Source: Sphingomonas astaxanthinifaciens DSM 22298
GTDB lineage: Bacteria; Pseudomonadota; Alphaproteobacteria; Sphingomonadales; Sphingomonadaceae
Reading direction: 5' to 3'
Length of the DNA: 64,000 nucleotides
Assembly: GCF_000711715.1 (NCBI RefSeq)
Contig: NZ_JONN01000001.1
Location: forward strand, 1,426,001 to 1,490,000
Shown: one piece after another, positions 9,571 to 12,960 of the stretch
Layout of the letters: every line of letters begins with the position of its first letter
How positions within the stretch are numbered: the first letter of the stretch is position 1
Notes under the pieces: generated by a model
Told to the model about the DNA's origin: nothing
Seen by the model: only the letters and a program-made list of their open reading frames with translations
Databases searched by the model: none
Made by a program: the position numbers and the translations under genes

Positions 9571-11496
9571 TCAGATCCGCAGCTGGCTGCCGAGTTCGAT
9601 CACGCGGTTGGTCGGCAGCTTGAAGAACTCCATCGCGCTCTCGCTGTTCTTCATCATCCACGCGAACAGGCGTTCGCGCCACAGCGCCATCCCCGCTTCC
9701 TCGCGCGTTGCCACCAGCTTCTGGCGGCCGAGGAAGAAGCTCGTGTTCATCATGCTGAAGGGCGCGCCGCACTGGGTGATGCGGGCAAGGTCGGCGGGGA
9801 CGTCGACCTCTTCCATGAAACCATAGTGGAGGATCACCCGGAAGAACCCGGATTCGGCCGGATGGATCTCGAGCCGCTTCTCGGGCGCGACATGGGGCAC
9901 GTCCTCGACCTTGACGTTGAGGATTAGCACCCGCTCGTGGAGCACCTGGTTGTGCTTGAGGTTGTGGAGCAGCGCCGAGGGCACGGAATCGGCCGAGGTC
10001 GAGAGAAACACCGCGGTCCCCTTCACCCGGTGAACGCTCTTCGCCGACTTGGTGAAGACCGCCAGCGGTAGCGCGTCAGCCGCCAGTCGCTTGCGCATCA
10101 GCGCGCGGCCGGTCGCCCAGGTCGTCAGCACGGTGAAGATGACCGCCGCGACGCACAGCGGGAACCAGCCACCGTCGAGGATCTTGGTCACGTTCGAGGC
10201 GAAGAAGATCGCGTCGACCACCGCGAACAGGCCGATCACCAGGCACGACAGCCAGCGATTCCACCTCCACACCTGGAAGATGAGCACGGCCAGCATTGCG
10301 GTGGTGATGAGCATCGTGCCGCTGACCGAGATGCCGTAGGCGGCGGCGAGCGCGGTCGATTCCTTGAACCCGATCACCAGCAGAAGGACCATGACGAGCA
10401 GGGTCCAGTTGACCGCGGGAATGTATATCTGCCCGGCGGCGCGGGCGCTGGTGTGCTTGGTATGCAGCCGCGGGAGGAAACCCAGCTGGACTGCCTGGTG
10501 GGTGACGCTGAACGCGCCCGAAATCACCGCCTGGCTGGCGATGATGGTCGCTGCGGTCGCGATCAGCACCATCGGCAGGCGGGCCCACTCGGGGGCCATG
10601 TAGAAGAAGGGATTGGTGGCGGTCTCGGGATGGCCGAGCAGCAGCGCCCCCTGCCCCATGTAATTCAGCATCAGGCACGGATAGACGAGCGTCAGCCACG
10701 ACAAAGCGATCGGCCGCCGCCCGAAATGGCCCATGTCGGCGTAGAGCGTCTCGGCGCCGGTCACCGCGAGGAAGACCGAGCCCATGGCAAGGAAGGCCAG
10801 CCTGGGATCGTAGAGAAAGAAGGCCAGCGCATGATGCGGGCTGAGCGCGCCGAGGATCTGCGGCTGGTCGATGATGTTGGCGATGCCAAGTGCCGCCAGC
10901 GCCGCGAAATAGACCAGCACCACCGGCCCGAACAGCAGGCCGACCCGCGCGGTGCCGTAGGACTGGACGAAGAACAGGCCGATCAGGATGACGATCGCGA
11001 TCGGCACCACCAAAGGCGCGAATCCCTGGTTGACCACTGCCAGCCCCTCGACCGCGGACAGGACCGAGATGGCGGGCGTGATCATCGCGTCGCCGTAGAA
11101 GAGTGCCGTGGCGAGGACGCCGAGCGTCACCAGCGCCGCGGTCCACCGCTTCTCGCCCAGCGTTCGAGAGATAAGCGCCAGCAGCGCGAACGACCCGCCC
11201 TCGCCCTTGTTGTCGGCGCGCATCGCCACGAACACATATTTGGCGGTGACGACCAGCATCAGCGACCAGAAGACGAGGCTGATCACCCCGAAGATGTGGA
11301 CGGGATCGACCGCCAGCGGGTGCGCGCCGACGAAGGTCTCCTTCATCGCGTAGAGCGGCGAAGTCCCGATATCGCCATAGACGATCCCGACCGCGCCCAG
11401 CATGAGTGCCGGAAGCGAATGGCTGCGATGCTGGTCGGCGCCACCGTCCGCGGCGGGGGAAGCGACGGGCACGGGCTTGGAGACGGTGATGGCCAT
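9571..11496 (-). CDS. kup: low-affinity potassium transporter Kup
   Basis: Proton-coupled potassium uptake protein of the inner membrane, 641 residues. The N-terminal core has G-I-V-Y-G-D-I-G-T-S-P-L-Y, the best conserved KUP/HAK/KT signature, followed by about twelve membrane helices (A-L-F-Y-G-D-A-M-I-T-P-A in an early one and G-A-E-T-L-Y-A-D-M-G-H-F in a middle one) and a soluble C-terminal domain of about 150 residues. The ATG at 11496 is 57 bases from the divergent start of a KdpD/KdpE-like membrane regulator. This shared promoter region suggests that the regulator controls kup, which is inference. Confidence 0.95.
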   Translation of the reverse strand: MAITVSKPVPVASPAADGGADQHRSHSLPALMLGAVGIVYGDIGTSPLYAMKETFVGAHPLAVDPVHIFGVISLVFWSLMLVVTAKYVFVAMRADNKGEGGSFALLALISRTLGEKRWTAALVTLGVLATALFYGDAMITPAISVLSAVEGLAVVNQGFAPLVVPIAIVILIGLFFVQSYGTARVGLLFGPVVLVYFAALAALGIANIIDQPQILGALSPHHALAFFLYDPRLAFLAMGSVFLAVTGAETLYADMGHFGRRPIALSWLTLVYPCLMLNYMGQGALLLGHPETATNPFFYMAPEWARLPMVLIATAATIIASQAVISGAFSVTHQAVQLGFLPRLHTKHTSARAAGQIYIPAVNWTLLVMVLLLVIGFKESTALAAAYGISVSGTMLITTAMLAVLIFQVWRWNRWLSCLVIGLFAVVDAIFFASNVTKILDGGWFPLCVAAVIFTVLTTWATGRALMRKRLAADALPLAVFTKSAKSVHRVKGTAVFLSTSADSVPSALLHNLKHNQVLHERVLILNVKVEDVPHVAPEKRLEIHPAESGFFRVILHYGFMEEVDVPADLARITQCGAPFSMMNTSFFLGRQKLVATREEAGMALWRERLFAWMMKNSESAMEFFKLPTNRVIELGSQLRI

Positions 11497-11531
11497 CGCC
11501 GGCAGATGGGCGCGGGCCGCATTAAGTTTCC

Positions 11532-11547
11532 ATGTGGATTATATGTG
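11532..11547. promoter_or_regulatory. candidate OmpR/PhoB-type direct repeat in the kup/regulator gap
   Basis: ATGTG occurs at 11532-11536 and again at 11543-11547, an 11-base period, inside an unusually AT-rich stretch of the 57-base divergent gap. Winged-helix regulators of the OmpR/PhoB family commonly bind direct repeats with this one-turn spacing. The neighbouring regulator carries such a domain, so this is a plausible operator. The repeat is only five bases long. Confidence 0.35.
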
Positions 11548-11553
11548 CTCCCC

Positions 11554-12960
11554 ATGAAGGAAGGGCGTGAGATCGACCCCTTCCCCCTCGACGAAGTCGC
11601 CGGGCAGGCGCACCTAGTCGAGCGACACTGGACAGCCGGAGTGCCTGCGTTGCGCCGCTATTTCGAAGCCCTGCTCATGGTGGCTGCGGTTACCCTGCTC
11701 GGGCTGGTCATCGCCCCGCGCTGGGGCACCTCCGCGGTCGACCTGCTGTTCCTGCCCGCGGTCATCGTCGCCGCGATCCGGGGTGGGCGGGGCGCGTCGC
11801 TGCTCGCGGCGGCGGCTTCGACCCTGGCCTATAATTTCTTCTTCACCGCCCCGCGCCTGTCGCTGCGCATCGACGATCCGACCGAATTCGCGACCGTGCT
11901 GGTACTGTTCGGGGTCGCCCTGGTCACCAGCCAGCTCGCCGCCTCCGTCCGCCGCGAGGCCGAGGCCGCCCGCGCCCATGCCGAGCGCAACGCCACCATC
12001 GCGGGCCTTGCCCGTCGTCTCCTCGGCTGCACCAGCGAGGAGGATGTCCTTGCTGCCTCCACCGTCGAGCTCGCCAAGGTGTTCGGCGGCAATGCGGTGC
12101 TGGTCGGCGGCCCGCCGGCGCGCCTGCTCGGCAGCAGCCCCCCGGGCGTGCAGCTCACCCCCAGCGACATCGCGACCGCAGGGCTGGTGCTCGACACCGG
12201 CCAGCCCGCCGGCCGCGGCCTCGACCGGGCGCTTCCGGTCGAATGGCAATTCCACCCGATCCGCTCTGGCGAGACGGTGCTCGCGGTCGCCGGGCTCGCC
12301 CGCGACGACGGTGCACCGGCCGTGGTCGCCGACCAGTTCGCGCTGCTCGGGAGCCTGCTCGATCAGGTCGCGCTGGCGCTCGAGCGCAGCCGGCTCGAGC
12401 GCGACGCGCAGGAATTTGCCCGCACCCGCGAGCGCGACCGGGTCCGCTCGGCGTTGCTGGCCAGCATCGGCGACGACCTTCGTCCGCCGCTCAAGGCCAT
12501 CACCGACGCCTCGCGCCAGCTCCGCCGCGAGGGTGAGGCGCGGCGCGAGCTTTTGTCCGAGATCGACGCCGCCGGCGCGAAGCTCGACCGCTACCTCACC
12601 GGGCTTGCCGACCTCGGGAGCGACGAACCGCAGCGCCCGGTCAGCATCGGCGACGTCACCATCGACCTGTTCCAGCGCAGCGTCAGCCGCGGCGGGCGGG
12701 CGGTCCGGCTGACCCCCAAGGAATTCGGGATCCTGGCCGAGCTCGCCAAGCATCGCGGCCGCGTGCTGACCCATGCCCACCTCCTCCGCGCGGTGTGGGG
12801 TCCGGCGCAGGAGAAGCACACCGACTATCTGCGCGTCGCCGTACGCGGGCTTCGCCAGAAGCTCGAGGCCGATCCCGCCCACCCGGCGCTGATCATCAAC
12901 GAGCCCGCAGTCGGCTACCGGCTGGCTAGCGAAACTCCGGCCCTGGCCGGCACCGACTGA
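11554..12960 (+). CDS. KdpD-like membrane sensor fused to KdpE-like DNA-binding domain
   Basis: A 468-residue chimera. Residues 35-130 hold closely packed membrane helices like the DUF4118 segment of KdpD (including A-Y-N-F-F-F-T-A-P). A GAF-like region follows at about 145-280, then a KdpD-like dimerisation helix at 295-350. In its H-box the phosphorylated histidine is replaced by Asp307 (S-I-G-D-D-L-R-P-P-L where KdpD has S-H-D-L-R). There is no HATPase domain and no receiver. The chain goes straight into an OmpR/PhoB winged helix at 362-458 that matches KdpE closely: L-T-P-K-E-F, V-L-T-H, L-L-R-A-V-W-G-P, Y-L-R, L-R-Q-K-L-E, G-Y-R-L. It should be a membrane-bound one-component transcription factor, in the manner of ToxR or CadC. 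The ATG at 11554 has no clear Shine-Dalgarno sequence; an in-frame GTG at 11641 is an alternative. It is divergent from kup. Confidence 0.85.
   Translation: MKEGREIDPFPLDEVAGQAHLVERHWTAGVPALRRYFEALLMVAAVTLLGLVIAPRWGTSAVDLLFLPAVIVAAIRGGRGASLLAAAASTLAYNFFFTAPRLSLRIDDPTEFATVLVLFGVALVTSQLAASVRREAEAARAHAERNATIAGLARRLLGCTSEEDVLAASTVELAKVFGGNAVLVGGPPARLLGSSPPGVQLTPSDIATAGLVLDTGQPAGRGLDRALPVEWQFHPIRSGETVLAVAGLARDDGAPAVVADQFALLGSLLDQVALALERSRLERDAQEFARTRERDRVRSALLASIGDDLRPPLKAITDASRQLRREGEARRELLSEIDAAGAKLDRYLTGLADLGSDEPQRPVSIGDVTIDLFQRSVSRGGRAVRLTPKEFGILAELAKHRGRVLTHAHLLRAVWGPAQEKHTDYLRVAVRGLRQKLEADPAHPALIINEPAVGYRLASETPALAGTD

Follow-up and report, generated by a model that had tools for sequence, protein, structure and literature searches.

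The gene facing kup in Sphingomonas astaxanthinifaciens DSM 22298 specifies a protein resembling both partners of the KdpD/KdpE two-component system, which raises the question of whether it is a regulator of its neighbour and, if so, how it could act and from where it came. The window, that is, the whole stretch of 64,000 nucleotides that was analysed, contains this gene as an open reading frame of 468 codons at positions 11554..12960 on the forward strand. The K+ transporter gene kup, with the Pfam domains K_trans and K_trans_C, is located at 9571..11496 on the reverse strand. In the original prediction, the product was described as a membrane-bound one-component chimera of KdpD and KdpE that faces kup across 57 bases. 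The start at 11532 given there is out of frame with the 468-residue open reading frame; the gap of 57 bp was confirmed, counted to the ATG at 11554.

Pfam assigned residues 36-141 of the protein (11659..11976) to DUF4118, the membrane domain of KdpD (E 1.6e-26), and residues 381-457 to Trans_reg_C (E 1.3e-20). HisKA matched residues 298-356 with an E value of 0.012, under its cut-off, and a match to 6TM_PilS was also sub-threshold (E 0.28). The closest NCBIfam models were KdpD (positions 401-682 of 895) and KdpE (positions 124-223 of 225), both under their cut-offs, as is expected because the protein is a fusion. Sequences of solved structures matching the chimera include the winged helix of KdpE, the membrane domain of KdpD (2ksf) and the GAF domain of KdpD (4qpr); CadC is also among the matches. 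In the AlphaFold model of a single chain (mean pLDDT 84.2, pTM 0.56), membrane helices are followed by a GAF-like fold, then a long pair of helices and finally a winged helix. Values of pLDDT are below 50 for residues 1-27 and 462-468 and for the junction (357-359); the pTM is low, and the placement of the domains relative to each other is therefore uncertain. KdpE chains accounted for five of the six best structural matches of the model (3zq7 with a TM-score by target of 0.94), and the first match beyond winged helices was the GAF domain of E. coli KdpD (4y2f, TM-score by target 0.79).

From these analyses the proposed KdpD-like character of the membrane and GAF regions was borne out, for the former by Pfam and for the latter (residues 156-279, 12019..12390) by sequence and fold matches. 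Likewise, sequence models, solved sequences and fold matches agree that the C-terminal OmpR-type winged helix (residues 363-457, 12640..12924), with Arg427 and Arg434 in its recognition helix, is closest to that of KdpE. Membrane segments and DNA-binding domain are thus present in one chain, the former visible as three hydropathy peaks above 1.6 and as model helices between residues 29 and 157. The DHp helices (residues 298-356, 12445..12621) are predicted to be kinase-dead and carry, as had been noticed, Asp307 (12472-12474) at the phospho-His position of the KdpD-like dimerisation helix. They are followed by the fusion junction or linker (residues 357-362, 12622..12639), the place at which the chain lacks the ATPase and receiver domains. 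The predicted lack of both domains was confirmed, as neither HATPase_c nor Response_reg, nor the N-terminal KdpD domain (PF02702), was found among Pfam matches up to E 10. PF02702 and HATPase_c are present in the genome's own KdpD, HATPase_c also in the short kinase of a two-component locus (L014, see below), and the receiver domain in the regulator of that locus.

A protein search with the chimera yielded 2444 relatives with E values up to 0.001, and DUF4118 and Trans_reg_C occurred together in all of the best 120. Scanning 84,980 species genomes revealed 107 relatives; 80 loci were kept, 40 of which were read as chimeras (L042-L080 and L084, of which L079 ends at a contig end and L084 lies in several frames). 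The genera concerned include Sphingomonas, Sphingosinicella, Erythrobacter, Altererythrobacter, Novosphingobium, Tsuneonella and Chakrabartia. A search for the architecture across sphingomonads had been suggested along with the original prediction; the architecture is conserved there, and an assembly error or a one-off fusion is ruled out by the dozens of other genomes with the same architecture. The distribution within the Sphingomonadales is patchy. Of 396 genomes sampled evenly across the order, 19 harbor a chimera, representing 9 of 84 genera; in a class sample of 385 genomes, it was detected in the strain's own genome and in none of the 384 others. Both counts refer to matches with E up to 1e-70, so that copies that are broken or have diverged strongly escape detection. 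Within the genus, reading of 71 genomes revealed the chimera in 18, including a copy in several frames in G010, the two-component form in one (G024) and a sensor-only protein in another (G388).

The residues at the phospho-site were compared in 168 distinct chimeras, obtained from 183 rows (the best 120 of the 2444 proteins and 63 loci) by removal of near-identical ones, and in 120 short KdpD-like kinases, the listed ones of 4888 found. While His is present in all 120 short kinases, it is retained in only seven chimeras, the remaining ones having Gln (95), Glu (36), Asp (21), Ala (3), Thr (2), Arg (2), Lys (1) or another residue (1). Position 311, the Thr of the motif HDLRTPL, is Thr in 120 of 120 short kinases and Pro in 162 of the 168 chimeras. 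Arg298 is kept in every protein of both sets. By its residues, the DHp bundle is retained as a fold, not as an enzyme. Since the chimera has neither ATPase nor receiver domain, independence from phosphorylation is strongly implied.

Conservation of the kup neighbourhood had been proposed as a check, and kup is divergent from the chimera gene in all 48 distinct loci with kup in reach. These 48 were obtained from 98 loci by removing duplicates. Dropped from the set were L015 and L084 (same species, several frames), L079 (truncated at the end of its contig) and L012, L047 and L196, which belong to one genome (G026), have no kup in reach and of which L012 lies inside L047. The copy in several frames from Sphingomonas daechungensis (L084:6001-7254) may reflect sequencing errors or decay. 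The window's genome has a second kup, 61% identical to the first. Fifteen kup proteins of the genus are at least 70% identical to that of the window; 14 are from genomes with the chimera and one is from the genome with the G024 pair. The link is not strict, as the neighbouring kup is just 53-62% identical to the window's in 7 of the 48 distinct loci. G026 is the sole chimera genome found without an adjoining kup. It has kup elsewhere, and its chimera faces trkA-trkH, another K+ uptake system (L047:605-3489, reverse strand), an arrangement that was counted in favour of the activator reading set out below.

Between kup and the chimera gene, an 11-base direct repeat had been noted, which proved to be real and conserved. 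It corresponds to a 21-bp element at 11520..11540, reading AATCCACATGGAAACTTAATG on the kup strand, with the half-sites CACATG-N5-TTAATG. The two 11-bp units are CATTAAGTTTC (11520..11530) and CATGTGGATTA (11531..11541), followed in register by two weaker ones, TATGTGCTCCC and CATGAAGGAAG (11542..11563), which are absent from most loci. The consensus of the family is CATAAAGATTCCATGTGGATT on the chimera strand and AATC-CACATG-GAATC-TTTATG on the kup strand, with two half-sites 11 bp apart that are alike in 7 of 11 unit bases. In all 48 distinct divergent loci the element is present with at least 17 of 21 positions, 10 of which are identical throughout; shuffled versions of the same regions (2400 shuffles) gave best scores of 8-15, mostly 10 or 11. 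Toward the chimera gene, the sequence flanking the element is poorly conserved. L015, the copy in several frames outside the 48, keeps the element at 21/21, and in G026 a weaker version (16/21) is located 389 bp before trkA, which counts against the activator reading. A search of the region 11300-11800 for known RNA elements gave no Rfam match up to E 1.

Searching the 2.53-Mb genome with 20 bases of the element and up to three mismatches yielded one match, and the reversed control none. With up to two mismatches, the element was found in 31 of 396 genomes, including all 19 chimera genomes with one match each at the chimera locus; since consensus and search pattern were built from these loci, the latter being written after the loci of these genomes had been seen, 48/48 and 19/19 describe the family and are no independent test. 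The other 12, out of 377 chimera-less genomes, hold 13 matches, with two mismatches each. The reversed pattern gave 14 over all 396 genomes, and the 13 are therefore at background level. One of them (G259) precedes kup in a two-component locus (L173). According to the part of PMC3264566 considered here, the E. coli KdpE site consists of the 6-bp repeats TTTATA and TTTACA separated by 5 bp, and the DNA-binding residues of KdpE include R193, R200 and T215. The element has the same 6-N5-6 geometry. In alignments, R193 corresponds to Arg427 of the chimera (kept in 167 of 168 proteins) and R200 to Arg434 (168 of 168), while T215 is aligned with a differing residue, Asn449 (168 of 168). The element is a site by its conservation and a probable operator; binding of the chimera would be in keeping with these similarities.

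On the kup strand, 47 of 48 loci have an in-frame kup start at a distance of 22-27 bp from the element, 43 of them at 23 or 24 bp, when in-frame starts at 20-28 bp are counted; in the exception, L068, the sole candidate is a TTG at 14 bp. A -10-like box, CCATCT at 11504..11509 in the window, precedes the kup ATG by about 7 bp. Its most common form is CCACAT, positioned 11 bp beyond the element and some 7 bp ahead of kup; the dinucleotide CA is retained by 47 of 48 loci, and the box matches the sigma-70 -10 poorly. The element itself occupies the place of a -35 region at a nearly fixed distance from kup, and no conserved -35-like hexamer was detected beside it on this strand in the 48 loci, which suits an activator-dependent kup promoter. 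From the spacing alone, the kup mRNA is predicted to be leaderless, and the -35 region would be replaced by an activator site.

On the chimera side, a CTCGAC-like hexamer, sought in four allowed spellings, is present in 48 of 48 loci, 18 bp before a CAtcT-like box; in the window these are CTCGAC (11587..11592) and CACCTA (11611..11616), resembling -35 and -10 regions, respectively. In 46 of 48 loci an in-frame chimera start follows 36-40 bp from the first base of the hexamer. The exceptions are L073, in which the first in-frame start is a TTG at 41 bp, and the window's own copy (L002), which has CGA where relatives have the start codon, so that the ATG at 11554 may be the wrong start. The next in-frame start is the GTG at 11641. 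Thus, the chimera probably starts downstream of 11554, perhaps at this GTG; it would then comprise 439 residues, and the gap to kup would be about 144 bp. The distance between element and -35-like hexamer falls into four classes, 33-34, 43-45, 54 and 65-68 bp, close to three, four, five and six times 11 bp (p 0.0032 for ten distinct values against a uniform distribution, a weak test because neighbouring values are related).

The origin of the chimera can be traced by comparison with two-component loci. In G024 (L014), an intact pair is found at the same place, divergent from kup, with a kinase of 531 aa (DUF4118-HisKA-HATPase, His in HDLRTPL) and a regulator of 229 aa (receiver and winged helix). 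Aligned with this pair, the chimera corresponds to the kinase up to just past the DHp helices and continues as the regulator from just before the winged helix. Further short pairs are divergent from kup in L168-L171, L177 and L178 (in L168 about 1.5 kb apart), and short KdpD/KdpE pairs co-directional with kup are present in L107, L110, L172-L176 and L179. The existence of intact kup-linked short pairs, that of G024 at the same place, argues that the chimera probably descends from a kup-linked pair of a short KdpD without the N-terminal domains and a KdpE. In trees of sensor plus DHp sequences, the chimeras fall among G024-type short kinases, with full KdpD proteins and the short kinases belonging to other kup-linked pairs branching elsewhere. 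Descent from a two-component pair is thus supported by the trees, and deletion of the ATPase and receiver domains is the probable event. A fusion of the genome's own kdpDE is disfavoured: the KdpD part groups with the short kinases, and the genome still has a kdp operon with open reading frames read as kdpA, kdpB, kdpC, a full KdpD of 886 aa (by Pfam) and KdpE. A short kup-linked pair is more likely to be the parent than the pair of the kdp operon.

The number of fusions is less obvious from the trees. In both free trees, some short kinases are nested in a chimera group, nine of them in the second, a quick tree of 71 hand-picked rows with the short kinases of L168 and L170 assigned to the outgroup, and this speaks against a single fusion. 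Several independent fusions, as suggested by these trees, are not required, since a tree with the chimeras in one clade scores better than the free quick tree (lnL higher by 8.51, p-AU 0.59) and a single origin is not rejected. The fusion probably arose once.

KdpE-like boxes are also found in the two-component loci. With a pattern of the TTTAYR-N5-YTTAYG type, written after such boxes had been seen, one box was detected on the kup side or in the gap in 13 of 15 kup-linked pair loci; L014, L175 and the own kdp stretch (L181) have none of this type. All eight co-directional loci contain a second box of the chimera type after the first, in seven of them about 32-33 bp later. These second boxes agree with the chimera consensus at 13-18 of 21 positions (L173 18, L110 16, L107 15, the others 13-14), and the site of the G024 pair at 14 of 21, placed as far from kup as it is in chimera loci. 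Unrelated places in two-component loci reach 13-14 as well, and it is the positions before kup, not the scores alone, that argue that the site type predates the fusion. Seven of the eight co-directional loci thus have a pair of KdpE-like boxes before kup, spaced by about three helical turns.

Taking protein, neighbour and site together, it appears quite likely that the chimera is a membrane-bound, phosphorylation-free activator of kup, derived from a kup-linked pair and acting at the 21-bp element. The membrane and GAF domains would sense a KdpD-type signal, presumably K+ shortage or turgor, as judged from their inheritance, and the DHp helix pair would stay as a dimer core without built-in kinase. 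A change in the dimer could set the two winged helices on the half-sites 11 bp apart (CACATG-N5-TTTATG). KdpE- and PhoB-type regulators activate by recruiting RNA polymerase, and the bound chimera would most likely do the same at kup. The same element probably also provides autoregulation of the chimera gene through the spacing in multiples of 11 bp to its -35-like hexamer. Direct control of kup by binding, activation rather than repression, a K+ or turgor signal and independence from an outside phosphate donor are what the sequences suggest. A more specific version has about even chances: a two-component pair was turned once into a phosphate-free regulator, with the dead DHp bundle as a mechanical coupler between a K+ or turgor sensor of the KdpD type and paired KdpE winged helices, the operator being inherited along with it, both messages being leaderless and the locus being drawn to the membrane. 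For such a coupler, the single element site in the genome would mean that the kup/chimera locus itself must come to the membrane.

Opposite regulation would result if the bound element blocked RNA polymerase and K+ shortage freed it. The distance from the element to the kup start codon, at most about 50 bp, is short enough for promoter block, and the chimera gene has -35-like and -10-like hexamers of its own, so that the protein may be made constantly. Repression is nevertheless rather unlikely: the kup strand lacks a conserved -35-like hexamer by the element, and KdpE activates kdpFABC, as stated in the section of PMC3264566 used here. With the element where the -35 region of a leaderless kup promoter should be, activation is the most likely outcome.

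A role in a phosphorelay, in which another kinase phosphorylates the chimera or a partner, could be imagined from the seven proteins that retain His and from the full KdpD and KdpE in the same genome. It is improbable given the replacement of His in all other chimeras, the change from Thr to Pro in the motif HDLRTPL of 162 of 168, and the lack of receiver and ATPase domains. Even less credit is due to the idea of a decaying kinase pseudogene whose neighbour was retained just through the short distance. The patchy spread (19 of 396 genomes) and the G010 copy in several frames would fit decay, but dN/dS ratios of 0.01-0.27 per region in the 12 closest chimera pairs let all four regions look under purifying selection, and the gene has been conserved over a long time together with its own DNA site. 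Selection and site in the main refute this explanation.

With KdpD/KdpE, the chimera shares the membrane, GAF and DHp parts, the winged helix and the 6-N5-6 site. It differs in being one protein without N-terminal KdpD region, ATPase and receiver, in having mostly lost the phospho-His, and in adjoining kup, not kdpFABC. ToxR, CadC and TcpP are membrane-anchored one-component regulators with an OmpR-type winged helix, which the chimera is predicted to be as well. In ToxR and CadC, the winged helix is at the N-terminus, whereas in the chimera it is C-terminal (residues 381-457) and preceded by a membrane domain of kinase origin, GAF and DHp. The likeness to ToxR and CadC put forward originally therefore holds for membrane segments and a DNA-binding domain in one chain, not for the position of the winged helix.

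The excerpts of PMC10269533 and PMC6528607 available here describe Rsp of Neisseria gonorrhoeae, a PilS receptor fused to the PilR DNA-binding domain, with different effects: repression of pilA in the former and apparently no role in pilE transcription in the latter. Rsp thus joins the membrane sensor of a kinase to the DNA-binding domain of its partner, as the chimera does, but belongs to the PilS/PilR families; the KdpD-KdpE chimera occurs in numerous genera and is accompanied by a conserved site of its own. In its excerpt, PMC10269533 also raises a two-component origin of membrane-bound regulators with Rsp as example, and defines hybrid two-component regulators by keeping at least one of receiver, HATPase_c and HisKA. 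The hybrid two-component systems of Bacteroides likewise unite a sensor with a DNA-binding domain in a single membrane protein, whereas the chimera keeps merely a degenerate HisKA below the Pfam cut-off. Among the open-licence PMC papers that searches brought up, none describes this architecture or its setting, as judged by titles and abstract openings, which is a weak negative. One-component membrane regulators and one kinase-regulator chimera, Rsp, were already known; a widely conserved family derived from KdpDE with its own site did not emerge from these papers. This widespread family coexists with presumed two-component twins, whose loci are the same or similar and whose DNA site is of the same type as the conserved site of the chimeras. 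It offers a direct way of asking whether the dimerisation bundle of a kinase can relay a signal to a DNA-binding domain when no phosphate is involved. It also reduces the KdpD sensor to a minimal protein for which one target is predicted, which is useful for finding out what KdpD senses.

The sensor-only protein of G388 mentioned above consists of 285 aa (L209:5361-6218, reverse strand) with DUF4118 as its sole Pfam match. This sensor without output domain adjoins a gene for a BBP2 porin and kdp transporter genes.
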